From: a virus
Length of the DNA: 46,517 bases
Reading direction: 5' to 3' (one strand)
IMG/VR virus record: IMGVR_UViG_3300043313_001434
Span: 1-46,517 of that record
In this document: piece by piece, positions 3,667 through 43,270 of the stretch
How the letters are laid out: every line of letters starts with the position of its first letter
Position numbering within the stretch: the first letter of the stretch is position 1
The notes under the pieces: generated by a model
What the model was told of the DNA's origin: nothing
Databases searched by the model: none
What the model saw: only the letters and a program-made list of their open reading frames with translations
Position numbers and translations under genes: made by a program

Positions 3667-4130
3667 TGCTCCCCTCGCTCGCCACCGTCGCCGACCTCGA
3701 AGCCCGGCTCGGTCACCCCATCACCGATGCGGGCGAACGGGAACGGGCGCAGGCCCTGCTCAACGACGCGTCCACCCTGGTGCGCTTCGAGGCCGGGCAG
3801 AGTTGGGTCGACGTGGACGGCGTGCTCACCGTCGTCCCCGACCTGGCCGTGACCATCACGTGCCAGGCGGCGCTGCGGGGCTGGTACAACCCGGCGGGCG
3901 TGGAGTCCGAGCAACTCGGCGCCGTGTCGGTGCGCTACGGCAATGCGTGGCTCACCGCCAAGGAGTCGGCGCAGTTGGCGCTGTTCTCGCGGGGCAAGGG
4001 CCTCGACCAGGCCATCCTGACGGGCGGGTTCGGCTTCGAGGTCGACCAGGCCCCCTACGTGCCGGTCAACAACGAAGAGGGCCTCGATACCTCTGCGGTG
4101 GCCGATCGGTTCCCGTTGGGGTGGCTGTGA
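3666..4130 (+). CDS. Head-tail adaptor (gp6/gp15-like connector)
   Basis: 154 aa. The N-terminal ATVADLEARLG helix and the helix around residues 20-40 (ERERAQALLNDAS) are typical of the head-tail adaptors that dock onto the portal ring; a second helical stretch covers residues 60-75 (AVTITCQAALRGW). Size, fold pattern and position right after the capsid gene agree with this role. ATG 3666 overlaps the capsid stop by one base and its stop overlaps the next GTG by four. Confidence 0.82.
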   Translation: MLPSLATVADLEARLGHPITDAGERERAQALLNDASTLVRFEAGQSWVDVDGVLTVVPDLAVTITCQAALRGWYNPAGVESEQLGAVSVRYGNAWLTAKESAQLALFSRGKGLDQAILTGGFGFEVDQAPYVPVNNEEGLDTSAVADRFPLGWL

Positions 4131-6288: not shown

Positions 6289-6599
6289 TCGCCCGACTGT
6301 CGGCTGAGACCGGCATCGGCTACTCGACACTCCTCGGCGAGCGCACCGACGACGTGATGGCTCTGGCCCACGCCGTCCGGGAACGCAATGACCGGTCGGA
6401 GTGGACGACGCTGCACGAACTCCTCGCCATGCTCGTCGAGGTGGTGTCGATCGTGCGCATCGAAGCCCTACTGGTGGCCGGGGTGAAGCGGTGGTCCCTG
6501 CCGGACCCCATCCACATCCCGCGCCCCGGTGAGGACAAGGAGGAACGGGTGAAGACTGTTACTCCCGGCCAGTTCCTGCGCCTGCAGGCGGCCATGTAA
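6237..6599 (+). CDS. Tail assembly chaperone, T part, expressed by -1 frameshift
   Basis: The reading frame -1 to the short chaperone is open from before 6105 and stays open to a TAA at 6599 that overlaps the tape-measure ATG. Downstream of about 6258 it encodes PYDPGSWRGLIARL and then a helical protein (residues including LHELLAMLVEVVSIVRIEALL), the usual composition of the T domain. There is no ATG or GTG in frame between 6237 and 6353, so expression as a fusion with the first chaperone by a -1 slip is the best model. I could not find a canonical X-XXY-YYZ heptamer; a GGACCCT stretch at 6255-6261 is the nearest but pairs poorly. Start given here is approximate. Confidence 0.75.
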   Translation, partial: AHRGDGGPYDPGSWRGLIARLSAETGIGYSTLLGERTDDVMALAHAVRERNDRSEWTTLHELLAMLVEVVSIVRIEALLVAGVKRWSLPDPIHIPRPGEDKEERVKTVTPGQFLRLQAAM

Positions 6600-22132: not shown

Positions 22133-22399
22133 TCAGGCGGCGCCGCGTTGCTGTCGCCGTTCTCGCTTCCGCCGGGAGGCGTCGATGGCCCGAGCGCACT
22201 CCACGATGTCGTTCATCACGTCCTTCATGTTGCCCCCGTCGGCCGTGATCCGTGCCCCCAGGTCGACGATGTGCGCCTCGATGAACGAGGTCACCGAGAT
22301 GCCGCGGACATCGCAGAAGTCCTCCAGGCACGACTTCGATGACGGCTGCACGAGGGCGTGCACCGACACCCGGTCACGTTGCATCACACGGGAAGTCAC
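22133..22399 (-). CDS. Ribbon-helix-helix-like small protein
   Basis: 88 aa from GTG at 22399 with ribosome site GGAGGG. Residues 10-45 (RVSVHALVQPSSKSCLEDFC, then DVRGISVTSFIEAHIVDL) fit the strand-helix-turn-helix pattern of Arc/CopG/MetJ DNA-binding proteins, with the strand VSVHALV followed by two helices. The C-terminus is basic (ASRRKRERRQQR). It overlaps the upstream gene by four bases and would be co-translated with it. Candidate transcription regulator, antitoxin or partition protein; no direct evidence for which. Confidence 0.6.
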   Translation of the reverse strand: MTSRVMQRDRVSVHALVQPSSKSCLEDFCDVRGISVTSFIEAHIVDLGARITADGGNMKDVMNDIVECARAIDASRRKRERRQQRGAA

Positions 22400-23204: not shown

Positions 23205-24755
23205 ATGGATTCGTACAAGGACACAGCCGTCAGCCAGCGGGTCGCCGGGGTGGCGCGACAACACGCCAAACGAGTGCGTTCCAAGCCCAGGGTGGCGTCC
23301 ACGGCCACCGAGGACGTGGGCTACGCCCGTGCCAGCAAGGACGCCGCCGTGGACCACAAGGGACGCCCCCGGGCCAAGGGCAAGAGCGTGGCCCGGCAGC
23401 GGGCGGACGGGGACATCCTGGCGAAAGCCCACAAGCTCGCCCCGCTGGAATGGTTCATCGACAACAACTTGTCGGGCGGGGACTTCGTCGACCGCCCCAA
23501 GTACGACGCCCTCCTGCTCAAGATCGAGGCTGGCCTGGTGCGCACCGTCGTCACCGACGCCCTGGACCGGATCGGACGCGAGGGGCTGGAACAGCAGGAG
23601 TTCCTGCTCATCTGCGAGGTGTACGGCGTCCGGGTCGTGACCGGCGAGGGCGACGACATCGACTACACGCACACCGATCCCGACAACGCCGTGCTGTCGG
23701 CCGAGGTGCGCGGCTCGGTGGCGAAGATGGAGCGGAACAAGATCCGCCGCCGCATGCGCAAGGACATCGCCTACCGCGCCCGCAACGGCGCCGCCCATAG
23801 CGGCAAGCGGGCGTTCGGCTTCGAGGCCGACAACGTCACCCACCGGCCCGACGAGGTGCGCCTCATCAAGGCCGCGGTGAAGGCCATCAAGAGCGGGGTG
23901 GCGACACAGGGGACGATCGCCGCGGAGTGGCAGGCGCAGGGCGTGCCGACGTCGGAGACCGAGAAACGCATCGCCAAGGGACTGGAGCCGGGTCGGTGGC
24001 ATCCCGAGGTCGTGAAGAACATGCTCCTCTCGCCGCGCATGATCGGGAAGCGCACGCACCACGGTGAGCTGTACGACGGGAAGTGGAAGGGGATCATCAC
24101 GGAGAAGGACCAGGATCTGATCCGGGCCAAGATGTGCCAGGCCCCCCAGGGAGCCAAGGCCCGTGTCGCCCTGTTGACCGGCGGCCTCGTGCGCTGCGGG
24201 CTCTGCGGCCACCCCATGTCGACGTTCTCGCCCAAGGGCGTGCGCAAGTACCGGTGCTGGACGCTGCGGGGCGGCTGCGGCGGCGTCACCATCCTCGCCG
24301 AGGAGTTGGAGAGGATTGTCGTGGCGGGGTTCTTCTACCGGCTCGACCAGATTTATGGCGGGTCGAAGTTGCGGGCGATCAAGAACGCGGACGACGACCG
24401 TGCCCGGCTCATAGCGGAGATCGGACTCCACAAGGCCAAGCTCAGCGACCTGGCCGAACTGTACGGCTCCGACAAGATGAGCAGGGCGGACTACGAGCGG
24501 CAGCAGGACAAGCGTGAGCGGATGCTCAAGGCCGCGGAGCGCAAGCTGGCCGAGACGCCCGACGGGCACGCCATTGCCGAACTCGTCTCGTCGAAGGACC
24601 AACTGCGGGCCGATTGGGACAAGCCCACGATGACGGTAGGGCGCCGACACGCCGCCCTGGCCCTTCTGCTCGACCACGTGCCGATCCACCGGGCGACGCC
24701 GCCCTTCCACACGTTCAACCCGGACCGGGTGGGGGAGCCCGTGTGGCGGGCCTAG
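23205..24755 (+). CDS. int: Large serine integrase
   Basis: 516 aa. Catalytic domain with GYARASKD (nucleophile Ser44), LSGGDF-x-x-RPKYDALL (about 89-104), ALDRIGREGLEQ (119-130) and the E helix (SVAKMERNKIRRRM). Recombinase domain about 195-310, then a zinc ribbon with C331, C334, C351 and C358, and a coiled coil at about 370-470. This architecture catalyses attP x attB integration without host factors. The catalytic Ser usually lies near residue 10-15; here 38 extra residues precede the domain, so a downstream GTG at 23316 is possible. The stop overlaps the convergent gene. attP was not identified. Confidence 0.93.
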   Translation: MDSYKDTAVSQRVAGVARQHAKRVRSKPRVASTATEDVGYARASKDAAVDHKGRPRAKGKSVARQRADGDILAKAHKLAPLEWFIDNNLSGGDFVDRPKYDALLLKIEAGLVRTVVTDALDRIGREGLEQQEFLLICEVYGVRVVTGEGDDIDYTHTDPDNAVLSAEVRGSVAKMERNKIRRRMRKDIAYRARNGAAHSGKRAFGFEADNVTHRPDEVRLIKAAVKAIKSGVATQGTIAAEWQAQGVPTSETEKRIAKGLEPGRWHPEVVKNMLLSPRMIGKRTHHGELYDGKWKGIITEKDQDLIRAKMCQAPQGAKARVALLTGGLVRCGLCGHPMSTFSPKGVRKYRCWTLRGGCGGVTILAEELERIVVAGFFYRLDQIYGGSKLRAIKNADDDRARLIAEIGLHKAKLSDLAELYGSDKMSRADYERQQDKRERMLKAAERKLAETPDGHAIAELVSSKDQLRADWDKPTMTVGRRHAALALLLDHVPIHRATPPFHTFNPDRVGEPVWRA

Positions 24756-26370: not shown

Positions 26371-26574
26371 GTGAAGCCCGACCGCATCTTCGTCCAACTG
26401 CACGACGGCAAGGACGTCGTGCTCATCGACATGGACGCCATCCACGCCATCGTCGGGGAGACCAACTCGACGGTGTACTTCGCCGAGTTCGAGGAGGGGT
26501 TCCTGGTGGACGAACCCCCGGCCGAAGTGCTGCAGCTCATGCACGAGGCGCACATGCAGAGGTACACCCCATGA
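26371..26574 (+). CDS. Hypothetical small protein in recombination operon
   Basis: 67 aa, GTG 26371 with GAAG upstream. RIFVQLHDGKDVVLIDMDAI is followed by a strand-rich stretch ending PPAEVLQLMHEAHMQRY. Acidic and compact, no domain recognised. It ends in ATGA overlap with the RDF-like gene, so the two are probably co-translated. Confidence 0.6.
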   Translation: MKPDRIFVQLHDGKDVVLIDMDAIHAIVGETNSTVYFAEFEEGFLVDEPPAEVLQLMHEAHMQRYTP

Positions 26575-27965
26575 CCATCCTCGGCCTGCAGCGCCGCATC
26601 CGTGAGGTCGGCCGCATCCGACTCGGCACCTCCACCCCGTCGGGCAACTCGAAGCGCCCCCGCAAGCTCGACAAGTTCCGGTTCACCTCACCTGACCGTG
26701 GAGTCATCGAAGCCGTCGCCGCCCTCCTCGGTGGCACGGCCCAGGAGTGGGACAACAACGGGGCGGTGCAGTGGGAGGTGTTCACCGAGGCGAACGAGGT
26801 GAAGATCCTCCTGCCGCCCAACGCCAGCGACATGTCGTTCTCACAGTTCTATGAGCAGTGGGCGAAAGGGTTCTGTTCGCACCGATGCGACGGCGAACGC
26901 AACCAGGCCCGGGACACGGCGTGCACGTGCGACCCGGAGAACCGGGCGTGCAAACCCACCACCCGCCTGTCGGTCCTCGTGCCGGAGATACCGGGGCTCG
27001 GCCTGTGGCGCCTCGAGAGCCACGGCTACTACGCCGCGGTGGAGTTGGCGGGGGCCGTCGAACTCATCGGCCAGATGGCCGGTGCCCGCTCCATGATCCC
27101 CGCCCGCCTGCGCCTGGAGCGCCGGGAGGTGCGCCGCCTGGAGGGCACCAAGCCCGTCGTGCGCAAGTTCGCGGTGCCGGTCATCGACCTCGACGTCTCC
27201 ATCCTCGGCGTGCGAGCCCTGGCATCGCACACGGTCGACGAGCTACCGGAGATCGAAGCCGGTGACGGGTGGGCGCCCGTGCCCGAGGTCGAAGCCCCCA
27301 CCGTGCTGTCGATCGAGTCGCAGGTGCGTGAGCACGAAGAGGCCAAGCCCCGGCGCACCACGCAGGCCCCGCTGCCCGCCACCGGTCGCCCCCGGCGCAA
27401 CGCGGCCGAGGTCACCGAACAGTCCTGCGACATCTGCACCAAGCCCTACGGCGCGGAACCCCTCGTGAAGAACCCGACCGAGGGCGGCAGCCGGTTCGTG
27501 CACCGGTCGTGCCTCAACACCGAGACACCCACGGATGTGGGTGAGTCACCGCCACCGGAGTCGGTGGCCGACGGCGGGGATGGCTCGCCTAGTGGGAGTC
27601 CCGAGGCGTCTCCTGCTGAACCCGTCCCCGCCGTCGCTCGACCCTCTACCCCGACCGCCGCCCAACCGCAAGGGGACTGGCCGATGACCGCGGGGCAGCA
27701 CCGCAAGATCATGGCCATGACAGCCGAGTTGTTCCCGGTCGCCCCGGGCACGCCCGGTCCCGAGGCGGACGGCTACCGCCGGGAGGTGACGCTGGAGATA
27801 TGCCGGGTGCTGGGCTACCCGGGCCTGGAGTCCCGCACGGACATCACGCGGGAGATAGCCAAGCTCCTGCTCGACGCCCTCACCAAGTTGGAGTCCGGCG
27901 AGTACGTGTGGGACGCCACCGAGTTGCGCCTGGTGGACGCGGCGACCGGGGAGATCGTGGGATGA
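26571..27965 (+). CDS. phiC31 gp3-like recombination directionality factor, extended
   Basis: 464 aa. Residues 1-225 resemble gp3 of phiC31/phiBT1: RIREVGRIRLGT (9-20), LDKFRFTSP (33-41), CSHRCDGE and CTC with Cys102, 106, 118, 120 and 127, CKPTTRLSVLVPE, and LGLWRLESHGYYAAVELAG (143-161). gp3 binds the serine integrase and switches it to excision. Residues 281-314 add a zinc finger (C286-x2-C289, H311-x2-C314). A Pro/Ser linker follows, then residues about 375-464 form a helical domain (MTAGQHRKIMAMTAELF, LESRTDITREIAKLLLDAL) like those at the C-termini of some phage annealing proteins. Much longer than phiC31 gp3 (about 245 aa). An additional role in replication is possible. Confidence 0.8.
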   Translation: MTILGLQRRIREVGRIRLGTSTPSGNSKRPRKLDKFRFTSPDRGVIEAVAALLGGTAQEWDNNGAVQWEVFTEANEVKILLPPNASDMSFSQFYEQWAKGFCSHRCDGERNQARDTACTCDPENRACKPTTRLSVLVPEIPGLGLWRLESHGYYAAVELAGAVELIGQMAGARSMIPARLRLERREVRRLEGTKPVVRKFAVPVIDLDVSILGVRALASHTVDELPEIEAGDGWAPVPEVEAPTVLSIESQVREHEEAKPRRTTQAPLPATGRPRRNAAEVTEQSCDICTKPYGAEPLVKNPTEGGSRFVHRSCLNTETPTDVGESPPPESVADGGDGSPSGSPEASPAEPVPAVARPSTPTAAQPQGDWPMTAGQHRKIMAMTAELFPVAPGTPGPEADGYRREVTLEICRVLGYPGLESRTDITREIAKLLLDALTKLESGEYVWDATELRLVDAATGEIVG

Positions 27966-29845: not shown

Positions 29846-30438
29846 ATGACCGCCAGCGCATCCGACTGGCCCAGGCCGTCGCCAACCGCACGGACCTGCT
29901 GGCCCGCACGCTCGACACCACCGTGGGGGGCTCCACCGTGTTGGGGCGCATGCGCGACTGTCAGGGGCCGTTGCGGGCGAAGACGTACGAGGCCACCCCG
30001 ACCTCCATGCGTCACGACGGCACCGCCGGGGGCATCGACCAGGCCACCCACGACGAAGCCAACCTCGACGCCGCCCTGCGCCACGCGTCGGTGGCCATCG
30101 GCAAGGCGTGGGAGATCATCGCCCGCTACCCGCCACCGCATCGGGCCAACGAGGCCGACCTGTTGGCCCTGGGCAAACTCAACGCCCGACCCGACCCCGG
30201 GTGCGAATCGTGCGCCCGCATCGAGAGCCCCGCCGGTGGACCCCGGTGGGAGCCACCACGGGCCGGTCAGGCCAACGCCACCTTCGTGGGCGGCCGCCTG
30301 GACAGGCCCATGTTGCTCTGCGAGTGGTGCTACCAGTGCGTGCGCCGGTGGGGCCGACTGCCATCGGGCACCGAGCTGGAGCGGCACCACCGCGGGGAGA
30401 TCGTGGCCTGGCCCAAGGACGTGAAGAGGCCGTCATGA
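29842..30438 (+). CDS. Hypothetical protein with Cys pairs
   Basis: 198 aa, ATG 29842 in an ATGA overlap. Helical N-terminus (RIRLAQAVANRTDLLARTL, then ALRHASVAIGKAWEIIARY). The C-terminal half has C-x2-C (CESCARI) near 114-117 and C-x2-C-x2-C (CEWCYQCVRRWG) near 163-169, a likely treble-clef or ribbon zinc site. Located just before prim-pol, so a replication accessory role is possible but unproven. Confidence 0.6.
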   Translation: MNDRQRIRLAQAVANRTDLLARTLDTTVGGSTVLGRMRDCQGPLRAKTYEATPTSMRHDGTAGGIDQATHDEANLDAALRHASVAIGKAWEIIARYPPPHRANEADLLALGKLNARPDPGCESCARIESPAGGPRWEPPRAGQANATFVGGRLDRPMLLCEWCYQCVRRWGRLPSGTELERHHRGEIVAWPKDVKRPS

Positions 30439-31247
30439 CCCTCGGCGACCTCGCCGCCGCCTACACGTACGGCGGGTGGTACGTGTTCCCGTTGCGGGCA
30501 GGCATGAAGACACCGGCGACGGCCAACGGGTTCAAGGACGCCACCCTGGACCGGGCCAAGATCGGCGCCTACTGGAGCCGTCACCCCGAGGCCAACATCG
30601 GCATCGCCACCGGGGCGTCCCGCCTGCTCGTCGTCGACCTCGACGCCGAAGAGGGCACGTGCGCCGCCGCCCTGGAGTTGTTCCACGGCCTGGGGGAGGT
30701 GCCCTACACGTACCGGGTCACGACGCCACGGGGTGGGGAGCACCACTACTTCACGCTGCCCGAGGGCGTGGACGTGCCGTGCTCGGCCAGCCGGGTCGGC
30801 TACCACATCGACATCCGCTCCACCGGCGGGTACGTGGTGGCCGCCGGGTCGGTGACCGACCTGGGCGCCTACGTGGAGTTCGACGCCGAAGTGGCGCCCG
30901 CCCCCCGGTGGCTCATCGAGGTGTGCCAGCGTCGCCCCGCTCCGGCTTCAGGACATCCGAAGACTGTCGCGGTAGACCACCTGGAGGCGTACGCCCGACG
31001 GGCGCTCGATGCCGAGGTAGCCCGGGTGCTCCTGGCCCGTGAGGGCGTGCGCAACCACACGCTGAACGAGGCCGCCTTCAACCTCTTCCAACTGGTGGCG
31101 GGCGGCGTGCTCGACAGCGTCACCGCCTTCGACGCGCTCTACATGGCCGCACGGGGCTGCGGGCTCGACGCCCGGGAGATCACCAACACGATCGAGTCCG
31201 GTGCCGAGGCAGGCAGCCGGTACCCCAGGAGGCCCGACGATGGATGA
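30435..31247 (+). CDS. Prim-pol: bifunctional primase/polymerase, N-terminal domain
   Basis: 270 aa. Residues 10-180 follow the prim-pol (AEP superfamily) pattern: YGGWYVFPLRAGMKTP (12-27), IGIATGASRLLVVDLDAEEG with D68 and D70 as catalytic acids, GGEHHYF with H103/H104, and HIDIRSTGGYVVA with D126 and R128. The enzyme makes primers and may extend them. The C-terminal part (residues 190-270) is helical. The partner helicase-like DUF3987 protein follows directly with an eight-base overlap, the usual pairing. Confidence 0.88.
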   Translation: MTLGDLAAAYTYGGWYVFPLRAGMKTPATANGFKDATLDRAKIGAYWSRHPEANIGIATGASRLLVVDLDAEEGTCAAALELFHGLGEVPYTYRVTTPRGGEHHYFTLPEGVDVPCSASRVGYHIDIRSTGGYVVAAGSVTDLGAYVEFDAEVAPAPRWLIEVCQRRPAPASGHPKTVAVDHLEAYARRALDAEVARVLLAREGVRNHTLNEAAFNLFQLVAGGVLDSVTAFDALYMAARGCGLDAREITNTIESGAEAGSRYPRRPDDG

Positions 31248-32796
31248 CGAGCTAGAGGCCGCGAGGGAAGAGTTCCTGTCGTCCCAGGTCGGGCGGGCGC
31301 TGAACGAGCCCCCGGCGCCCGACCCACCGCAGGAATGGAAGGCCCCCATCGCCCTCAGCCCCGGCGCTCGACCGCCGGTGTTCCCGGCCCACCGGCTACC
31401 GGCGTGGCTCTGCGACTACGTGTGCGCCGTGGCCGAGTACCTGCAGGTGCCCGTGGACCTGCCCGGCATGCTGGCGCTGTCGGCCATCGCCACCGCGGCC
31501 GGGGGCCGGGCCGTGGTGCAACCGTGGGCGGGGTGGAGGGAACCCCTGAACCTCTACGTCACCGTGGCCATGCCCCCGGGGGCTCGTAAGACGCCGGTGT
31601 TCCAACACATCATCCGCCCCCTGGAACACGCCGAGCGCCTGGCCGTCGAGGCCGCCAAGCCCGAGGTGGCCGAGGCCCGGGTGCGCCACCAGGCGGCCAA
31701 GGCCAAGGCCGACAAGGCCGAAAAGGACGCAGAGACCGCGTCCAAGGAGGCCAGCGAAGAGGCCGTGCACTTCGCCAGCCAGATGCGCCTCATGGCCGAG
31801 GCCGTCACCGTGCCCCACATCCCCCGACTGCTGGCCGATGACTGCACGCCCGAGTCGCTGATGACGCTCATGTGCGAGCAGGGCGGGCGCATCGCTCTCT
31901 ACTCGGACGAGGGTGAGGTGTTCGGGATGATGGCCGGTCGGTACTCCACCGCCGGGCCGAACCTGGGGGTGTACCTGAAGGCGCACGTCGGCAGCCCGAT
32001 CCGGGTGGACCGCAAGGGCCGCGACCCCGAGTACATCGAGCGCCCAGCCATGACGCTCGGGCTAACCATCCAGCCCCACATGCTGCGCGACGTCGCCGGT
32101 ATCCACGGCGCCCGCGGCCGGGGCCTACTGGGTCGCTTCCTGTGGGCCGTTCCGGTGTCGAACATGGGCACCCGGAGCAATGACACGGCGCCGGTCCCCG
32201 ATGCCGTCGACGCCCGGTACCTGGAGTACGTCGCCGCCCTGGTCGCTTCCCTGTCCGAGTGGGTCGACCCGGCCGTGCTGCCGTTCACGCCCGAGGCCGC
32301 CGCCGAGCTGCGCCGGTTCGCCGACTGGCTCGAACCGCAACTAGCCGAGTTCGGGGCGCTCGGGTACCTGGCCGACTGGGCGTCCAAGCTCGTCGGGCAC
32401 ACGGCCCGCATCGCCGGTCTGCTCTCCCTGGCCAGCAACGTCGACACCGGGTGGAAGGTCGACGTGAGCGCGGCGTGCGTGGCCGACGCCATCAAGATCG
32501 CCGAGTACCTGATCGCCCACGCCGTCATCGCCTTCGACACCATGCACTTCGACCCCCTGGTGGAGGACGCCAGGGCGCTCGTCAACTGGATCAGCGAACG
32601 GGAGCACTTCACCCGGCGGGAGATCATGCAGTCCCACCGCCGTCGGTTCTCCACCGTCGACGACATCAAACCTGCCCTGAACCTGTTGTGCGAGCACGAG
32701 TTCATCGTGGAACTGCCCCGGGAACGCCCCACGGGGCGTGGTCGTCCCCCCGGACCGAAGTACATCGTGAATCCACGGATCATGGAATTGGACTAA
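31240..32796 (+). CDS. DUF3987 helicase-like protein
   Basis: 518 aa from ATG 31240. Matches the DUF3987 pattern: PPVFPAHRLPAWLCDYVCAV, a P-loop-like MPPGARKTPVFQ at about 123-134, then a Lys/Ala/Glu coiled coil (165-195), LADDCTPESLMTLMCEQGG and LYSDEGEVFGMMAGRY (about 222-238; Walker B-like DEGE), and ARGRGLLGRFLWAVP. C-terminal winged helix (FTRREIMQSHRRRFSTVDDIKPAL). Such proteins act with prim-pol as replicative ATPases. Last gene of the early operon. Confidence 0.86.
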   Translation: MDDELEAAREEFLSSQVGRALNEPPAPDPPQEWKAPIALSPGARPPVFPAHRLPAWLCDYVCAVAEYLQVPVDLPGMLALSAIATAAGGRAVVQPWAGWREPLNLYVTVAMPPGARKTPVFQHIIRPLEHAERLAVEAAKPEVAEARVRHQAAKAKADKAEKDAETASKEASEEAVHFASQMRLMAEAVTVPHIPRLLADDCTPESLMTLMCEQGGRIALYSDEGEVFGMMAGRYSTAGPNLGVYLKAHVGSPIRVDRKGRDPEYIERPAMTLGLTIQPHMLRDVAGIHGARGRGLLGRFLWAVPVSNMGTRSNDTAPVPDAVDARYLEYVAALVASLSEWVDPAVLPFTPEAAAELRRFADWLEPQLAEFGALGYLADWASKLVGHTARIAGLLSLASNVDTGWKVDVSAACVADAIKIAEYLIAHAVIAFDTMHFDPLVEDARALVNWISEREHFTRREIMQSHRRRFSTVDDIKPALNLLCEHEFIVELPRERPTGRGRPPGPKYIVNPRIMELD

Positions 32797-32803
32797 CGAA
32801 AGG

Positions 32804-32848
32804 TGACGCATTTGACCTCATAATTCATTAATGAGGTCAAATGCGTCA
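32804..32848. terminator. 18-bp perfect inverted repeat closing the early operon
   Basis: TGACGCATTTGACCTCAT at 32804-32821 pairs without mismatch with 32831-32848, loop AATTCATTA. It begins eight bases after the DUF3987 stop. The AT content is far above the surroundings. Most simply a transcription terminator; a protein-binding palindrome (operator, origin element) is the alternative. Confidence 0.75.
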
Positions 32849-32904
32849 GGTTTCGTAGGAATCCAGAATCGACCGGGGGTGACGGACCGTGATCGGAACG
32901 CGAA

Positions 32905-36045: not shown

Positions 36046-36251
36046 TCGTGCTCCGTCGATTCACTTTGCACGTGGTGGGTCCTGATGGGGTGACGCGACC
36101 GACCGGGGCGCTCTACTGGACACGTCGTCGTGCCCGACGAGAGGCTGCGCGTCTCGACGCGCCCGGATACTCCTATCTTGTGCGCCGGTTCTGGTTGGTT
36201 GGTCAGGAGTTCTCGCAACTTGACGTAAGCCCGACCGGGGAGGACACGTGA
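36042..36251 (+). CDS. Hypothetical small basic protein
   Basis: 69 aa, GTG 36042. Arg-rich centre (YWTRRRARREAARLDAPG) and the C-terminal LDVSPTGEDT repeated in neighbours. The GGGGAGGACAC ribosome site before the start is identical to that of the next gene. No domain recognised. Confidence 0.5.
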   Translation: MIVLRRFTLHVVGPDGVTRPTGALYWTRRRARREAARLDAPGYSYLVRRFWLVGQEFSQLDVSPTGEDT

Positions 36252-36664
36252 GCGGCGATCGGTCGCCGCTCACGATCCCTTGCCCCCTTGACCACCTTCC
36301 GGGCAGCGTCGGCGTCGGCGGCGCCACCGTGACGACGTGCATCCTGTGTGGCGAGACCAGCGAATCGACGGCCCTCAACCGGCACCGGCGCATCGTCGTG
36401 CACGAGCTGGTCGCCCGGTTGATCGCCGCGGTCGCGACTCCTGCACCTCACGACGACACCCTGCTGACTCTCCGTCAGGCCGCCGCTGTGCTCAGCGTCT
36501 CGTACTCCACCCTCACCAAGTGGACGGCTCGCGGAGAGTTTTGCCCGCAAGCATTCAAGCTTCCAAATGGCGAGTACCGCGTTCGTTACCGTGACCTCAT
36601 CAGATGGGCACTCGACTTCCGGGCGCCCGAGGAACCCCGCTCACGTCGGAAGGGAAGCCAATGA
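36248..36664 (+). CDS. Excisionase/MerR-type HTH protein
   Basis: 138 aa, GTG 36248. C-x2-C near 31-34 with histidines downstream (TCILCGETSESTALNRHRR) suggests a zinc finger. Residues 72-120 are a MerR/excisionase-like winged HTH: LLTLRQAAAVLSVSYSTLTK, then W-x-ARGE and PNGEYRVRYRDLIRWAL. DNA-binding role is likely; it could be a regulator or assist recombination, though serine integrases normally use gp3-like factors rather than this type. Confidence 0.7.
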   Translation: MSGDRSPLTIPCPLDHLPGSVGVGGATVTTCILCGETSESTALNRHRRIVVHELVARLIAAVATPAPHDDTLLTLRQAAAVLSVSYSTLTKWTARGEFCPQAFKLPNGEYRVRYRDLIRWALDFRAPEEPRSRRKGSQ

Positions 36665-37490: not shown

Positions 37491-37681
37491 ACGGTTGGAT
37501 GGAAGAGGACTTCGCCGTGCGCATCCTGGGCGAGGCCATCGCCGACGGTCGGGCGGCCGAGTTGCTGGAGACGCTGATGGAGGGCGGGGCGGCCACGTTC
37601 GACCCGGTGGAGAACAAGCTGCGCATCATCACCGGCGAACAGGTGCGCCGACTCGCCCGTGGCCCTCTGGGCGATGAGTGA
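37487..37681 (+). CDS. Hypothetical small protein
   Basis: 64 aa from ATG 37487, ATGA overlap with the preceding +1 frame; the frame is also open upstream to ATG 37367 (104 aa) but the added N-terminus is shadow-like. Sequence: acidic helix (EEDFAVRILGEAIADGRAAE), LLETLMEGGAATFD, then ENKLRIITGEQVRRLARG. Function unknown. Last gene of the rightward accessory unit. Confidence 0.55.
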   Translation: MNGWMEEDFAVRILGEAIADGRAAELLETLMEGGAATFDPVENKLRIITGEQVRRLARGPLGDE

Positions 37682-37710
37682 GGGGTGGGGTATCACCCCC
37701 TCCCTCATGA

Positions 37711-37783
37711 CCCCCGGGGTAGCACCCCCTGGGGTAGGACCCCTGGGGTATAGCCCCCCTATTCGCTCCCCCCGGGGGTAGGG
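37711..37783. repeat. Four imperfect CCCC(T)GGGGTA repeats
   Basis: Units near 37711, 37725, 37740 and 37768, each a short C-run/G-run palindrome followed by TA (C5G4TAG, C5TG4TAG, C4TG4TAT, C6G5TAG). They fill the gap between the rightward accessory unit and the minus gene 37902-38189. Also here: a 6-bp hairpin GGGGTG/CACCCC at 37682-37699. Could terminate transcription from both sides. Confidence 0.6.
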
Positions 37784-37901
37784 TCCCGGGTGGACATCCA
37801 CCGTCCCGTGCTGCAGTGGCACATCGGCACCGCTGCATCACCACCTCCCCCCGGTCCCGCGACTGTTCACCAACCACCGCCGGGACCGGGGGGGCTCCGC
37901 G

Positions 37902-38189
37902 TCAGGGGTCGGGGACCTCCCAACCGGAGGGGCCAAGGAACACGCCCAGGGCCTCGTCGAAGGCCATCAGGGCACGCTGCAGCCGGTCGTAGCCCTCGGC
38001 GTCCTGGCGGAGTCGGTACACGCCCAGGGCGCTCTGCACGGCGTTCCAGGAGGCGCTGAGGTCGGCCATGGGGCCGGAGAGGCTGGCGGCCGACGCCGTC
38101 AGTTCGGCGTGCGCTACGGACCACCAGGCGCCCTTGCGCATCGTGCGCAGGGCGGCCATGGGTGAGGTCATCGGCAGGGTTCGGGTCAC
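37902..38189 (-). CDS. Hypothetical helical protein
   Basis: 95 aa from GTG 38189 with GGAGG just upstream. Helical (MAALRTMRKGAWWSVAHAEL, SWNAVQSALGVYRLRQDAEG, LQRALMAFDEALGVFLG), no recognised domain. It is a lone minus gene whose upstream side faces the AATCG and CATG arrays at 38252-38463, so those arrays could be its control region or it could encode a protein that binds them; both are guesses. Confidence 0.55.
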   Translation of the reverse strand: MTRTLPMTSPMAALRTMRKGAWWSVAHAELTASAASLSGPMADLSASWNAVQSALGVYRLRQDAEGYDRLQRALMAFDEALGVFLGPSGWEVPDP

Positions 38190-38251
38190 GGGTCCTCCGT
38201 TTGGCTCATCGAGGGGCAAGGGGGGCCAAAGGTGGACCGCATGCTGTCAGG

Positions 38252-38327
38252 AATCGCCCGTTCGGGGAATCGCCGGGATCAAAAATCGCCGGGAATCGGA
38301 AAATCGCCCGAAAATCGCCGGGAATCG
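38252..38327. repeat. AATCG-element array (7 copies)
   Basis: AATCG at 38252, 38268, 38284, 38294, 38302, 38313 and 38323, six of them as AATCGCC or AATCGGA/C with G/A runs between. Spacings 16, 16, 10, 8, 11 and 10. A-rich spacers (AAAAATCG, GAAAATCG) make this the most A-rich stretch around. Iteron-like. Confidence 0.75.
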
Positions 38328-38360
38328 GCCCTCTAGGGGCGTCCATGAGCATGCCTGTGT

Positions 38361-38460
38361 GTGCATGCTTCAGCATGTTGCAGCATGCTTAGACATGCTC
38401 CGTCATGCTGAAGCATGTTGATACATGCTTAGTCATGTAGGAGCATGCTTAGACATGCAC
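38361..38460. repeat. Ten tandem 10-bp units centred on CATG
   Basis: CATG occurs at 38364 and every 10 bases to 38454 without a break: ten units of the form NNNCATGYTN. The 30-bp blocks at 38364, 38394 and 38424 are also related to each other, so the array probably grew from a 30-bp unit of three. Extra CATG at 38344, 38350 and 38460 flank it. Phase of 10 bp places all sites on one face of the helix. Not coding, since 10 is not a multiple of three. Confidence 0.9.
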
Positions 38461-38464
38461 ATGC

Positions 38465-39060
38465 CTGTACACGGAGGTCGGGACCTCCGGGCGTCGACGG
38501 GACCGGACCGGGCGACCGGACGACGACGACGGGCACGCCCGGGAGGTCGCTGCAGCCGGTCGCCCGGACGTTCTGCAGCGGGACCGGGCGAAACGGGCGT
38601 TTCCGGGGCGTCCGTGTGCAGAACGTCGACGGTCGTCCCGGGCGTAAAAGGGCCAGAACGGACGACTCTACGGGCGTGCCGTCCCGGTCCGTCGACACAC
38701 GTCTACTGACATCCTGGCGGCGCGGTCCCGGGCACGGCAGGCCACGGCAGGCCACGTTACCGACAACGGGCACGCACACGGCGCCGACGACCTCTACGGG
38801 CACGACGACGGGCACGACGTGCCGACGACGGCGCACGGCGCCGTGAGCGACCTCTACGGGCACGGACGACGCACACGGGAGGCACACGGCGTCGAGACGG
38901 GCACACGGACGCCACACGGCGTCGTGTGCGTCCTCGACGACCGGGACGACCTCGACGGTCCACACGACCTCGTGACGGGCAGGCACGGCACTAGGAACGC
39001 GCCGGTACCCGCGTGCCGACAACGGGCACACGGGTACGGGTACGGCACTAGGGCAGAGAC
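38465..39060. other. Skewed sequence without convincing gene
   Basis: About 600 bases made largely of CGAC, GGCAC and ACGG words with few AA or TT steps. Small hairpin CGGAGGTC/GACCTCCG at 38472-38489; a 10-bp tandem ACGGCAGGCC at 38734-38753; CTCTACGGGCACG at 38792 and 38852. Long open frames exist on both strands, but their products are low complexity and lack ribosome sites. Possibly a decayed gene or structured RNA. Confidence 0.5.
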
Positions 39061-39062
39061 GG

Positions 39063-39093
39063 GACTGGCCCGCGGATGATCCGCGGGCCAGTC
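39063..39093 (-). terminator. Terminator of the minus operon
   Basis: Perfect 14-bp stem (39063-39076 with 39080-39093) and a TGA three-base loop, 21 bases beyond the last stop codon of the leftward operon. Strongest hairpin in the neighbourhood. Confidence 0.8.
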
Positions 39094-39113
39094 GAGCAAC
39101 GGGCACGGTCGGT

Positions 39114-39725
39114 TCAGTCGCCGTTGTGGAACGACTCGAACGGGCATCGCCCGGAGGGTACGGGCGTGAGCGTCGTCGACGCGTCGTCGTCCCAGGACAG
39201 CCCACACGTGCCACACGTGGCGTTACCGTCGTCGTCCGGCTGTACTGGCCAGTCCTCCGGGATGTCCTCGGCGTCGAGCTGCAGCGACTCGACGAACGGC
39301 ACGTACTCGGCGCGGACCTCGTCAAACAACGCCGTCGCCAGTCGCTCCGCGATGATGTAGAGGCACACCCGGGCGGACTGCTCCATGTCCGATCCATCGA
39401 CGCCGTACTCGGTCGGGTCCTCCTGGTAGGCCGCGAGGTCCGTGAACTCGGACCACAACGTGTGCGTGTACACGTCCGGCGCGTTGTCGGCGACCTCGTG
39501 AACGACGTCGGAGATAGTGCCGTCGTCCTCGGCCCATGCCTCCCGGTCGTCCTCGTCGAAACTCTCGAGACGGTCGACGACGTTGTCCCGTACGGAGAGG
39601 AGAAACAACGCGCCCGGAGAGTCCGGGAGGTCGGGTGTCGCGCACTCGGCGTCGCCCGTGAGCTGATACGCGTTGTAGTTGCGCAGTACGTCGAGGATGC
39701 GGTTGGGGACCGGGAGGTAGTTCAT
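39114..39725 (-). CDS. Acidic lysine-free protein with C-terminal zinc site
   Basis: 203 aa, ATG 39725, no lysine at all. Asp/Glu-rich body (FDEDDREAWAEDDGTISDVV, WSEFTDLAAYQEDPTEYG, RVCLYIIAERLATALFDEV) and a zinc-like end with C171-x2-C174, C194 and H200. The W-x-x-FTDLAAY-x-ED pattern is one I associate with uncharacterised actinophage proteins. Last gene of a five-gene operon. Strong negative charge would suit a DNA-mimic or anti-restriction protein, but no such family is recognised. Confidence 0.75.
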   Translation of the reverse strand: MNYLPVPNRILDVLRNYNAYQLTGDAECATPDLPDSPGALFLLSVRDNVVDRLESFDEDDREAWAEDDGTISDVVHEVADNAPDVYTHTLWSEFTDLAAYQEDPTEYGVDGSDMEQSARVCLYIIAERLATALFDEVRAEYVPFVESLQLDAEDIPEDWPVQPDDDGNATCGTCGLSWDDDASTTLTPVPSGRCPFESFHNGD

Positions 39726-39740
39726 CGGATGTCCGTTCTG

Positions 39741-39759
39741 TTGGGCTAGGTGGGCTAGG
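39741..39759 (-). promoter_or_regulatory. Start-associated leader, copy 1
   Basis: TTGGGCTAGGTGGGCTAGG on the plus strand; read on the minus strand it is two CTAGCCCA units before the start codon of 39725. Shared with 40646-40671, 41636-41667, 41843-41869 and partly 42736-42744. In this copy the following AACAGAACGGA replaces AACCGAAGGA. Confidence 0.75.
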
Positions 39760-39798
39760 CGACTGTCATCATCAGTACGGCGCCGTCACGCGCCGTAG

Positions 39799-39817
39799 AC
39801 GGTCCACACGGGACCGT
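39799..39817 (-). terminator. Intergenic hairpin after the 39828 gene
   Basis: ACGGTCC / GGACCGT, seven pairs, five-base loop, ten bases beyond the stop codon. Closely related to the perfect palindrome at 40713-40732 in the same relative position. Likely a partial terminator or RNA-processing/stability hairpin between operon genes. Confidence 0.55.
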
Positions 39818-39827
39818 TTCGACTGTC

Positions 39828-40637
39828 CTAGACGTAGAGGTCGCCGTCGTCGCCGACGTAGAGGTCGACCTCGCCGTACGGGCGGCAGGCGGACGTGAGA
39901 CGGTCGCCCACCTCGCCGAGTCCGCGGTCCCAAAAACCCGCGCCGTGCCCGTTGCGGGTAAGCCAGAAGTCGTGGCCAGTCTGCTCCGCGTCGAGGTCCC
40001 GGAGGTCGTCCCAATTGGCGCCGATGAACGTCACGACGTCGACCAACAGTTCCGCCCGGAGGTCGTCGGAGAGGTCGTCGACGCTGAAACGGGCATCCAT
40101 CGGTTCCGGATTGTGGACCTCGACGTCGTCGACGTCCGTGTAGTCGAGCGACGACCACAACGCCGTTTCGAGGTACTGGGCGAACGCGGACTCGACGTAC
40201 GCCCGGAACGTCTCATCAGCAACGACGATCTGTCCGCACACGGCGCACACGACGGGCCAGTCGTGCGCCGTGTGCTCCGAGTACGTGAACGGGTAGGCCA
40301 CGGCGTCGCCCGCACCCTGCCCGTCCTCGTCGTCGCCCGTGAGCAGGAACGTACGGACCTCCGCGTGCTGCCACATGTGCTCGACGTCCGTCATCAGCTC
40401 GACCGCGCCCGCCATGTGCTCTGCAGCCCACCGCGTGAGGCAGTCGTCGCTGCAGACTTCCGCGCCGTCGTACGCCTCGACGCCCGTCCAGTAGTGCCCG
40501 CCGTAGAAGTACGTACGGTGACCGACGGTCGACGTGCAGTCGAAGAGGTCGCGGGCGACGGCGCCGACGACGACGCACGACGCGTCGTCGGAGAGGTCCG
40601 GGAGTAGTTCGTTCACGAGGTTCACGGTGATGTTCAT
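39828..40637 (-). CDS. Acidic lysine-free conserved phage protein (GHDFWLTRNGHG family)
   Basis: 269 aa, ATG 40637, no lysine; by hand count 54 Asp/Glu against 12 Arg. C62-x3-C66 and C131-x2-C134 may bind zinc. The C-terminal GHDFWLTRNGHGAGFWDRG and then GEVDLYVGDDGDLYV are a strong signature of an uncharacterised protein seen in many actinophages and some mobile elements. Here it stands in a co-transcribed set with the same leader before each gene. Function unknown; the conserved His/Trp/Asn-rich block may be an active or binding site. Confidence 0.8.
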   Translation of the reverse strand: MNITVNLVNELLPDLSDDASCVVVGAVARDLFDCTSTVGHRTYFYGGHYWTGVEAYDGAEVCSDDCLTRWAAEHMAGAVELMTDVEHMWQHAEVRTFLLTGDDEDGQGAGDAVAYPFTYSEHTAHDWPVVCAVCGQIVVADETFRAYVESAFAQYLETALWSSLDYTDVDDVEVHNPEPMDARFSVDDLSDDLRAELLVDVVTFIGANWDDLRDLDAEQTGHDFWLTRNGHGAGFWDRGLGEVGDRLTSACRPYGEVDLYVGDDGDLYV

Positions 40638-40645
40638 CGGAGAGG

Positions 40646-40671
40646 TCCTTCGGTTGGGCTAGTGGGCTAGG
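40646..40671 (-). promoter_or_regulatory. Start-associated leader, copy 2
   Basis: Minus-strand reading: CCTAGCCCACTAGCCCAACC then GAAGGA, eight bases before ATG 40637 region. One base shorter between the two CTAGCCCA units than in copies 3 and 4. Provides the ribosome site. Confidence 0.8.
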
Positions 40672-40712
40672 TAGTTGGCAGGCACATCAGTACGGGCATG
40701 CCAGTCCCGTAG

Positions 40713-40732
40713 ACGGTCCCGTACGGGACCGT
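40713..40732 (-). terminator. 20-bp perfect palindrome after the 40738 gene
   Basis: ACGGTCCCGTACGGGACCGT is fully self-complementary and begins five bases after the stop codon of the gene ending at 40738. A second small inverted pair (TACGGG/CCCGTA, 40691-40711) follows. Either an intergenic attenuator or a dimer-binding site. Confidence 0.6.
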
Positions 40733-40737
40733 TTCGC

Positions 40738-41628
40738 CTAGAGGTCGTCGGCGTTGAGTCGGCCCTGGTAGTCGACCCAGTCCGCGGGAGGCATAGCGTC
40801 GTCCTCGACGTAGTGCGCGGTCCCGTGCCCGGTCACATGCTCACGGACGACGCTGAACACCGGGAGGTCGACGCCGTTCGACCGCTCGACGAGTGCAGCC
40901 ATGATGAGACGACGGGCGTGCGCGGCTTCCGACCTCTCGTCGCCCGTGAGAGGCACGGACGCGTGCCACCGCCCGAAACCGTCGGCCCACACGGTCGACC
41001 GGTCCGGGAGGTCGTCGACGTCGTCCTCGACGACCTCGGCGTCCTCGCCGTCGTCGTTCCAACCGTGCCAGTCGTGCCCGTACAACGCGTCTTCGTTCTC
41101 CGCGTCCTCCGCGTCGTCCCACGCGGCCACGTCCGGAAAGAGGTCCCGGATCATGTTGTACGCGTGCACGCCGTTCACGGCACGTTCCGGGAGGTGGTGG
41201 TGGGAGACGAGTCCCGTCGACGCCGTGTGGGTGACATGCCTGCCGCCGTACCAGGCGACAACGCCCGGTCCGTCGACGTCACCCCACAACGCGGGCGAGT
41301 CGTCGCCGAGTTCGAGGTACGCGCAGAATGGAGACGAGTACTTCCGGGAGTACTCTCCGCGCCACGTCCGGGACAGTCCGCCGGTCGGCACACGACCGCC
41401 GTACACACGGGAGGGACGGACGAGGTAGTCGACGTTCCGGACGACGACGACCGTTTCGTACGGCGTGTACGTCCGTCGACCGCCGTTCACGGTCGTCACG
41501 ACGACGCCGTAATCGGAGACGTCTACCGAGTCGATGCGCGGACCGTAGAACGTTCCGGAGAGGGTGATGGTTACGAGGTGGTCGCCCACCTCGATGTTGC
41601 GGGCGCGGAATGTGAGTTCGTTCATCAT
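40738..41628 (-). CDS. Acidic lysine-poor hypothetical protein
   Basis: 296 aa from ATG 41628 with AAGGA seven bases upstream (a longer frame exists but includes the leader). One lysine only. Beta-rich N-terminus (FRARNIEVGDHLVTITLSGT, GGRRTYTPYETVVVVRNVDY), a central acidic stretch (WDDAEDAENEDALYGHDWHG, DDGEDAEVVEDDVDDLPD), and a helix-rich end (AAHARRLIMAALVERSNG). No domain recognised. The N-terminal DNA/RNA-like barrel pattern (VGDH...V) is only suggestive. Confidence 0.75.
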   Translation of the reverse strand: MMNELTFRARNIEVGDHLVTITLSGTFYGPRIDSVDVSDYGVVVTTVNGGRRTYTPYETVVVVRNVDYLVRPSRVYGGRVPTGGLSRTWRGEYSRKYSSPFCAYLELGDDSPALWGDVDGPGVVAWYGGRHVTHTASTGLVSHHHLPERAVNGVHAYNMIRDLFPDVAAWDDAEDAENEDALYGHDWHGWNDDGEDAEVVEDDVDDLPDRSTVWADGFGRWHASVPLTGDERSEAAHARRLIMAALVERSNGVDLPVFSVVREHVTGHGTAHYVEDDAMPPADWVDYQGRLNADDL

Positions 41629-41635
41629 GGCGAGT

Positions 41636-41667
41636 TCCTTCGGTTGGGCTAGGTGGGCTAGGTGGGC
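41636..41667 (-). promoter_or_regulatory. Start-associated leader, copy 3
   Basis: Minus-strand reading has three CTAGCCCA/CCCAC units then AACCGAAGGA just before ATG 41628. Same core as copy 4; the extra GGTGGG unit indicates slippage of the tandem repeat. Confidence 0.8.
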
Positions 41668-41677
41668 AGAGACGGGA

Positions 41678-41836
41678 CTAGTCGGCGAGGTCGATGCAGT
41701 ACGACGACTCGGCGCGGATGAGACGGGCGATAGCGGCACGAGCGAGGTACTCGTCGAGGTCCGCTGCAGCGTCGCGCCGGAACTCGGCGAGGTGGACGGC
41801 GTCGCGGATGATGTTGGCGGCTGCATTGATCGGCAC
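41678..41836 (-). CDS. Small lysine-free helical protein
   Basis: 52 aa from GTG 41836 with leader copy 4 and ribosome site GAAGGA. Helical throughout (PINAAANIIRDAVHLAEFRR, DLDEYLARAAIARLIRAESS). No lysine. No domain recognised. Its retention of the leader supports a real gene despite its size. Confidence 0.7.
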   Translation of the reverse strand: MPINAAANIIRDAVHLAEFRRDAAADLDEYLARAAIARLIRAESSYCIDLAD

Positions 41837-41842
41837 GGGAGG

Positions 41843-41869
41843 TCCTTCGGTTGGGCTAGGTGGGCTAGG
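41843..41869 (-). promoter_or_regulatory. Start-associated leader, copy 4
   Basis: Minus-strand reading CCTAGCCCACCTAGCCCAAC then CGAAGGA, immediately before GTG 41836. This is the fullest two-unit form and can serve as reference. Confidence 0.8.
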
Positions 41870-41880
41870 GCAGAGTCGGA

Positions 41881-42723
41881 CTAGAACGGGCGGACGTCGA
41901 GGTCGAAACGGTCCGCACAACGCTGGCACGTCGGTACGGCGCCGAGGACCGGATGAGAGGTCGTCCCGGCCGCGGGACGGTCGCACATGGCGAAGTACTC
42001 GCACGGGACGGGCGTCGACTGAGGTTGGGCGAGTTGCTGGCACACGGACCGGTCGCACACGGGCAGGCGGTCCGGCGCGACGGTCGCGGCGTCGACGTCA
42101 CGTCCGCAGTACTCGCACGGTGCCCACACGGTGCCCGTGTACAACGGCGAGGTCCGGTCCGTGAGGAGGTTCGACCGGGCGACCCAGACCTGGGGACCGG
42201 TCGTGAGCTTCACCACACGACCGTCGACGCCGTCCCGGTCCTGGGACCGGAGGACGATGCCACTCGGGTCCCGGACGATGCCCGTGGGACCGGAGAGGAC
42301 TCGCACGGGCGTACCGGGAGTGAAGGCAGGCTCAACGGGCATCGGCACGTCGACGTGCGACCGGTCCATGTGGTCGCCGTCGTGCCCGGTCGGGAGGGTG
42401 CAGGCGATAGGCGTGCCGTCGTCGTGAGGCATGTGCGGGTACACGACGGCGCACGGCACGGCGTCCGGGACCGTCTCGCCACGGTCGACCGGGTGCATGC
42501 CGGGACGGGACTCAGCCCAGGCGGCCAGTAGTGCCACCTCGTCGAGCTTCACTCCCGGCTTGTTGCCCAGTACACGGCGCACGTCCGTGAGGGTGCTGAA
42601 CCGCACGAGGAGTGCGATGTCGGCGACGTCGTCCTTACGGAGACGGGAGGGGACGGCCACGCCGTGAGTCGTGAGGTACGCCCGGTACTGGGCGACGGTC
42701 GGGCGGAACGGGAGTGAATGCAT
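41881..42723 (-). CDS. Zinc-finger protein, first gene of lysine-poor operon
   Basis: 280 aa from ATG 42723, GGAGAAC ribosome site. Four lysines. Residues 1-75 are helical (TVAQYRAYLTTHGVAVPSRL, DVRRVLGNKPGVKLDEVALL). Residues 85-125 contain CAVVYPHMPHDDG and ACTLPTGHDGDHMDRSH, a His-rich motif known from short actinobacterial proteins. Residues 130-195 form an SH3-like beta part (GTPVRVLSGPTGIVRD). The C-terminus has two zinc knuckles: C203, C206, C223, C228 and C241, C247, C266, C269. Function unknown. Confidence 0.72.
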   Translation of the reverse strand: MHSLPFRPTVAQYRAYLTTHGVAVPSRLRKDDVADIALLVRFSTLTDVRRVLGNKPGVKLDEVALLAAWAESRPGMHPVDRGETVPDAVPCAVVYPHMPHDDGTPIACTLPTGHDGDHMDRSHVDVPMPVEPAFTPGTPVRVLSGPTGIVRDPSGIVLRSQDRDGVDGRVVKLTTGPQVWVARSNLLTDRTSPLYTGTVWAPCEYCGRDVDAATVAPDRLPVCDRSVCQQLAQPQSTPVPCEYFAMCDRPAAGTTSHPVLGAVPTCQRCADRFDLDVRPF

Positions 42724-42894: not shown

Positions 42895-43270
42895 TTGACA
42901 TGCTCCATATGAGGGACCCTCGACCTCGCACGTATGGGGGAGGCGAGGATGAGTCATCGGGCCTATTGACACGACATGTCAATGGGCCGTCCGGCCCATT
43001 ACCGTCGGTTTACACCCGTGGGGGGTACCCCGAACGGGTGATAAGACGCAGACCGTTGAGGCCAGGAGTCGCTTATATGGAGAACCTGGCCAATTGGCTA
43101 TTCCGCTGCTTATTTCTGCTAGAGGCTCCAGGTGGTTCCTATTACCGGCACGTCCCGCCACCTGGGGTTTAATGGCTAACGCTCGCCCCGATCCTTGCTT
43201 GACATCCCAAGCACGGTTCGAGTACAAGTCGTGGTTATCGGCTATTGGCCACCGGTCGGCCAGGACGCAT
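42895..43270. promoter_or_regulatory. Palindrome-rich control region before terminase (possible cos)
   Basis: No gene. ATTGACA at 42894-42900 and 42965-42971; the second forms ATTGACA-N5-TGTCAAT (42965-42983). It overlaps AATGGGCCG-TC-CGGCCCATT (42981-43000). Another hairpin, CTCCAGGTGG / CCACCTGGGG at 43126-43167, is followed by TTTAAT and may be a terminator. Location directly before HNH and terminase genes is where cos sites of HNH-type phages lie. Confidence 0.5.
43199..43228 (+). promoter_or_regulatory. Probable late promoter
   Basis: Perfect -35 TTGACA (43199-43204), 18-base spacer, -10 TACAAG (43223-43228). Predicted start near 43235, 38 bases before the HNH gene. It would drive the packaging and structural genes. 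Confidence 0.6.

Follow-up and report, generated by a model that had tools for sequence, protein, structure and literature searches.

Ten CATG cores in 10-bp phase in a probable temperate actinophage: a candidate loading strip for a DNA-binding protein

In the HTH_17 family of DNA-binding proteins, BldC binds head to tail on 9-bp direct repeats (PMC5859096), and RdfS forms a head-to-tail filament with about 10 bp of DNA per molecule (PMC11963761). The partition protein ParR recognises repeats of 10 bp, with one dimer on each iteron (PMC5016525). The small-terminase ring of the SF6 type has HTH motifs spaced by roughly one turn of B-DNA and could be wrapped by about 100 bp (PMC4737164). Here we analyse the full 46,517 nucleotides of a viral record from IMG/VR (the window), in which CATG is repeated at a similar spacing. 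The parts of the array are:

Positions 38344..38363, plus strand: left end motif CATGAGCATGCCTGTGTGTG, with an in-phase CATG (38344), an off-phase CATG (38350) and a degenerate in-phase CCTG (38354).
Positions 38364..38457, no strand assigned: ten phased CATG cores, from the sequence scan, shuffles and column counts.
Positions 38454..38473, plus strand: right end motif CATGCACATGCCTGTACACG, with the tenth in-phase CATG (38454), an off-phase CATG (38460) and a degenerate in-phase CCTG (38464).

The ten cores follow each other at exact 10-bp steps from 38364 to 38454, with zero spacing errors. A sequence-only reading had stated precisely this, together with flanking copies at 38344, 38350 and 38460, and the rescan and the shuffles bear it out. 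Three CATG at 10-bp steps occur eight times in the window, all in the array, against none in 100 dinucleotide shuffles, and a scan of the whole window finds no CATG pair spaced 10 bp outside the array. The two copies of the end motif CATGNNCATGCCTGT, at 38344 and 38454, stand at both array ends, 110 bp apart; the off-phase CATG at 38350 and 38460 are parts of this motif. Followed outward, the in-phase order is CATG at 38344, CCTG at 38354, the ten CATG, and CCTG at 38464. The same reading saw three 30-bp blocks, which are present but weak: TRF scores period 30 best, and spacers resemble each other more at lag 30 (mean identity 0.52) than at lag 20 (0.44) or lag 10 (0.31).

Clear is the difference between cores and spacers. 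In the ten units, which contain no indel, none of the 40 core letters varies, while 26 of the 60 spacer letters differ from the column majority (Fisher p=1e-7). The core has a weak extension, RCATGYT, where Y is found in 10/10 units, T in 8/10 and R, before the core, in 7/10. Invariant cores between drifted spacers point to selection on core and phase, and argue against a neutral minisatellite, in which all columns of the unit would be expected to diverge alike.

The array strand is predicted to fold stably as RNA (z -4.7), because the cores are self-complementary: permutations of whole spacers are as stable or more so in 561 of 1000 cases, and no special dyad was seen. A hairpin or structured RNA was therefore rejected. 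In an Rfam search the array matched only sub-threshold microRNA models.

Viral contigs were scanned for five CATG at 10-bp steps, which gave 28 loci. Most of these are perfect minisatellites, while nine belong to one phage group and have unrelated spacers; their terminase places this group in Beephvirinae, Streptomyces cluster BF. In 31 Beephvirinae regions upstream of terL, with kinship only partly removed, CATG pairs at 10, 20 and 30 bp number 41, 33 and 20, against shuffle means of 2.3, 2.2 and 2.0 (maximum 8), and at 9 and 11 bp there are 1 and 2 pairs. Four divergent members have unrelated spacers and keep CATG and the phase alone. FlowerPower has a phased CATG triplet near both genome ends, and the 275-bp direct terminal repeat of Immanuel3 contains a CATG pair at 10 bp. 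Phased CATG is not found in every member. Examples upstream of terL are 143-166 and 46023-46046 in L158 and 2690-2733 in L019, and the phased CATG of this group adjoins an element, of the type GACCCGGGGGTTNTTAAA, that is widely shared. It may be part of a packaging or end-recognition signal. No packaging signal of these phages was found described in the literature searched, and phased CATG offers a way to test whether helical phasing is linked to terminase or end recognition.

A functionless minisatellite, produced by slippage of a unit of 10 or 30 bp and now decaying, would agree with the tandem layout and weak 30-bp blocks of the window array, with the plain minisatellites that make up most CATG arrays at this step in the viral collection, and with the nearest relatives, which lack the array. 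However, neutral decay should strike cores and spacers alike, and much of Beephvirinae has phased CATG, with spacers that are unrelated, in one and the same terminal region. We regard this explanation as improbable.

The relatives were gathered using TerL as bait, which gave contigs 79-85% identical in TerL; with the helicase and the anti-restriction proteins as baits in viral contigs, no usable close relatives were obtained. The surroundings of the array contain two features needed for the comparison:

Positions 37902..38189, minus strand: g59, a small helical protein, the sole gene called in 37682-39114 and the nearest to the array.
Positions 38250..38330, plus strand: an AT-rich repeat family, AATCGCC, with AAATCGCCGGGAATCGG twice, unrelated to the array and located between g59 and the array.

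Around the array, 37682-39114 is largely non-coding and is here called the hinge. Rightward genes end at 37681, and on the other side of the array there is a leftward operon (39114-42723), whose gene adjoining the array resembles OCR-like anti-restriction proteins. In a genome of 68% GC the array is among the least GC-rich, most AT-rich places (0.42-0.47). No sigma-70-type promoter was found near it, and the GC skew of the genome was uninformative.

Two nearest relatives cover the hinge, G032 (47.3 kb) and G035 (46.6 kb, to which L168 is very similar), both with 79-84% identity in TerL; the third, G029, begins just after the helicase gene, so that the hinge is not covered. G032 and G035 are syntenic with the window: the layout is kept, with AT-rich repeats at the same place and then the leftward operon. 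The counterparts of the repeats at 38250-38330 differ in sequence (AAATTTCCCCGGGATTT twice in L168, CCGAAAAAACCCCGAAAAAACCCC in L166), and a small leftward gene of L168 at the position of g59, with 26% identity, may be homologous to it. Not one copy of CATGN6CATG was found in G032, G035 or the other contigs searched, nor was any other tetramer phased at 10 bp found in those relatives checked. The array is thus lineage-specific and dispensable to this type of phage. The sequence-only reading held that absence from related phages, together with a lack of protein binding, would make the array a neutral minisatellite; the absence is real in the two nearest relatives that cover the hinge, but the neutral origin is opposed by the core and spacer statistics and by the recurrence elsewhere. 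Nothing comparable to the array is seen in Lannister, Diane, Urza and ChewyVIII, which are named phages of Streptomyces and Rhodococcus that carry the anti-restriction gene; in ChewyVIII, a run of three CATG in 10-bp steps lies about 90-115 bp inside the right end.

Some further differences from the relatives can be observed. The Prim-Pol primase (30435-31247) has no match in the three relatives, which suggests that the primase module was replaced in the lineage of the window; read by eye, two relatives seem to encode a CHC2/TOPRIM-like domain instead, located ahead of the helicase. The hinge DNA beside the leftward operon has a phage-specific vocabulary that is different in each relative: ACGGGCACG in the window (38474-39114), GTCGAGCACG and GGGCTGGTCG in L168 (2340-2905), and CGAGCACGAGC in L166 (5100-5560). 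At the operon, TGGGCTAG occurs at 39742, 39751, 40655, 40663, 41645, 41654, 41852, 41861 and 42736, mostly as tandem pairs, about 13-26 bp before the starts of all five leftward genes (39725, 40637, 41628, 41836 and 42723), and looks like a start-associated sequence.

A 70-base repeat is common to both ends of the IMG/VR record, indicating a circularly closed genome of 46.4 kb, with 67.9% GC. Besides the genes for an exonuclease, a RuvC-like resolvase, the Prim-Pol primase, a DUF3987 helicase and the terminase, it contains:

Positions 23205-24755, strand not given: serine integrase.

Further, among the 42 proteins scanned one, in all likelihood the product of 26571-27965, matched a gp3-like recombination directionality factor. 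From the integrase, the directionality factor and the other gene content, the virus is probably an integrating temperate actinophage.

Phased arrays are not limited to one tetramer. Planned controls were GTAC at 10 bp and CATG at 11 bp, and ACTG at 10 bp, which is not self-complementary, was also scanned. Distinct arrays with spacer identity up to 0.6 make up 10/37 for GTAC at 10 bp, 11/40 for CATG at 11 bp and 10/28 for CATG at 10 bp; for ACTG at 10 bp the fraction is 8/61 among the matches listed. A device specific to CATG, or strictly to 10 bp, was rejected, as both control types also include arrays with divergent spacers. GTAC arrays at 10 bp are found inside replication-initiator genes (L126 at 5486, L129 at 3966), at the start codon of a small protein in L141 that is RHH-like by eye and matches RHH_1 below the cut-off, in L157 at a distance of about 1 kb from a ParA gene, and upstream of terminase genes (L118 at 4366, the L136 type at 3748 and the L128 type at 7289). 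CATG arrays at 11 bp lie inside Lin1244_N/O-like initiator genes, by profile in L307, L293 and L308 and by resemblance in L286, L301, L312 and L294; in L290 (7858) a ParA gene has such an array at its start, and an RHH_1-like protein is encoded next. These contexts (initiators, ParA modules and terminase-proximal sites) indicate that phased self-complementary tetramers are a recurrent form of protein-loading site, tied neither to CATG nor to a single function. The arrays of L118, L136, L128, L126, L129 and L290 may represent a general class of phage loading sites. Among 395 sampled genomes of the same actinobacterial class, the only two five-unit CATG arrays at 10 bp are plain minisatellites. 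With its ten units, the window array is the longest example of CATG at 10 bp with divergent spacers found in the viral scan.

An iteron block of the phage replication origin, bound by an initiator, would be in keeping with array DNA that is AT-rich, non-coding and beside a second repeat family, and with the CATG arrays at 11 bp inside O-like initiator genes of other phages. The unmatched Prim-Pol primase also speaks for it, since replisome and array could have arrived together. On the other hand, no O-like or DnaD-like initiator was matched, and no cognate initiator gene containing or adjoining the array was found, among the proteins scanned; the replication genes (helicase) are 5.6 kb away, and relatives with a 57% identical helicase lack the array. 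Further, the highest AT content is that of a long inverted repeat, which closely follows the helicase gene in all four phages and is a better origin candidate. We therefore consider an origin at the array unlikely, though still worth weighing. The inverted repeat, directly after the DUF3987 helicase at 32795-32860 in the window and likewise in L262, L264 and L266, has a different sequence in each, with arms of about 20 bp in the window (TGACGCATTTGACCTCAT...ATGAGGTCAAATGCGTCA); it is a candidate replication origin or terminator.

Another function to consider is packaging, where the array would be a pac- or cosB-like site wrapped by the terminase ring. Arrays phased at 10 bp do occur upstream of terminase genes in Beephvirinae and in the L118, L136 and L128 types, and in FlowerPower and Immanuel3 phased CATG is inside the direct terminal repeat. 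For the window, the position of the genome end is indicated by the contigs of relatives: L162, L163, L164 and L169/L170 start at one point upstream of terS-terL, L168 reads through it (~6388-6397), and there the ends of G035 meet, ten bases (CGGCTGAGGA) separating them. In the window this point of convergence corresponds to the putative cos site:

Positions 43054..43063, no strand assigned: inferred cos site CGTTGAGGCC, from its position and the similarity to the contig ends of relatives.

It is 4.6 kb from the array, which is consequently not at the packaging terminus, and relatives with TerL 79-84% identical have no array. Packaging at the array is very unlikely.

Partition had been proposed as well, in the form of a centromere bound by an RHH-type protein. 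In favour of a plasmid-type centromere, similar arrays adjoin the ParA modules of L290 and L157, and ParR takes repeats of 10 bp. Against it, the window encodes a serine integrase and thus the means of an integrating lifestyle; no AAA_31 match, as expected of a ParA-type ATPase, was obtained in the window genome (one is found in G023), and no ParM/StbA family was matched among the proteins scanned. The RHH-like character suggested for the product of the gene at 22133 found no support either: profiles gave no RHH family, RHH_1 had no match in the window genome even at E 1, and the AlphaFold2 model, of moderate confidence (pLDDT 73), is all-helical with no strand and no significant PDB match. 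As a dedicated binder this protein was rejected, as it has homologues in G032 and G029 while G032 lacks the array. With these results a centromere becomes very unlikely.

The explanation we prefer, in which we place about even confidence, is that selection maintains the array as a loading strip, to which a DNA-binding protein with sequence specificity attaches. We infer that a protein binds it. This agrees with the proposal of a regulatory or nucleoprotein site, which gains from the core being kept while the spacers diverge and from the comparable phased arrays in other phages. As partition and packaging are disfavoured and the inverted repeat is the better origin candidate, a regulatory or architectural element remains, with an origin function second; the role is probably regulatory or origin-like. 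Each CATG (RCATGYT) would be occupied by one protomer or dimer, so that every helical turn would carry one molecule. The 10-bp spacing would align the subunits on one face of the helix, where they would touch and bind cooperatively; the resulting nucleoprotein filament, bent or wrapped, would span about 110-130 bp. More tentatively, the complex may have a regulatory or architectural part in the hinge, the non-coding DNA that separates the rightward early genes from the leftward anti-restriction operon.

Also more tentatively, the binder may be the phage's own HTH_17 protein, whose gene is 1.7 kb from the array:

Positions 36248..36664, plus strand: HTH_17 protein (excisionase/BldC-like wHTH), candidate binder of the array, Pfam HTH_17 over the cut-off.

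Its proximity and the behaviour of its family, in which BldC, Xis and RdfS place about one protomer on each DNA turn, make it the lead candidate, and the array consists of direct-orientation repeats about one helical turn apart, as would suit an HTH_17 filament. Against this protein, the self-complementarity of the core would fit a symmetric dimer more readily than wHTH subunits bound head to tail. The idea that an HTH_17 protein is unique to the phage with the array was rejected, as relatives encode such proteins elsewhere in their genomes. The product of 37902-38189, noted earlier as a lone helical protein, is indeed modelled as a three-helix bundle, but it matched no DNA-binding family.

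If one copy of the protein loads per turn, the array would be a sequence-defined ruler for the study of cooperative filament formation. In a wider sense, self-complementary tetramers (CATG, GTAC) one helical turn apart with free spacers could be a general phage device, in which docking strips are interchangeable and serve at genome ends, origins, centromeres and regulatory hinges. The array of the window would then be a use outside the three recognised contexts. We did not find such a device described in the literature searched, and we put it forward as a tentative idea, doubtful at present. The window array itself we take to be new in this phage lineage and to look selected; counterparts of its kind occur close to terminase genes, at origins and at partition modules, and its role in the window is presumably the one argued above.

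Compared with known systems, the array shares with the type II centromeres parC (ParR; R1/pB171/pSK41) about ten phased repeats of 10-11 bp, each taking one dimer in parC; the difference is that in the window phage, an integrating one, neither ParM nor ParA was found and no RHH protein is confirmed. Lambda-type origin iterons are likewise phased short repeats, with versions of CATG at 11 bp and GTAC at 10 bp inside O-like initiator genes of other phages. However, lambda-type iterons lie inside the initiator gene, while the window array stands in non-coding DNA, with the replication genes 5.6 kb away, in a phage where no O-like protein was found. The Beephvirinae arrays have the same exact 10-bp steps of CATG and variable spacers, but they have 3-6 units against ten in the window, adjoin the terminase gene, are inside the direct terminal repeat where the ends are known, and have no homology with the window beyond the core. 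Finally, BldC repeats are 9 bp and AT-rich (AATTNNNNC) and RdfS has no clear consensus, whereas the core of this candidate site is an invariant self-complementary CATG at 10 bp. What the array has in common with the filaments of BldC, RdfS and Xis is short repeats about one DNA turn apart, tolerant spacers and a variable copy number, in a phage that encodes an HTH_17 protein.
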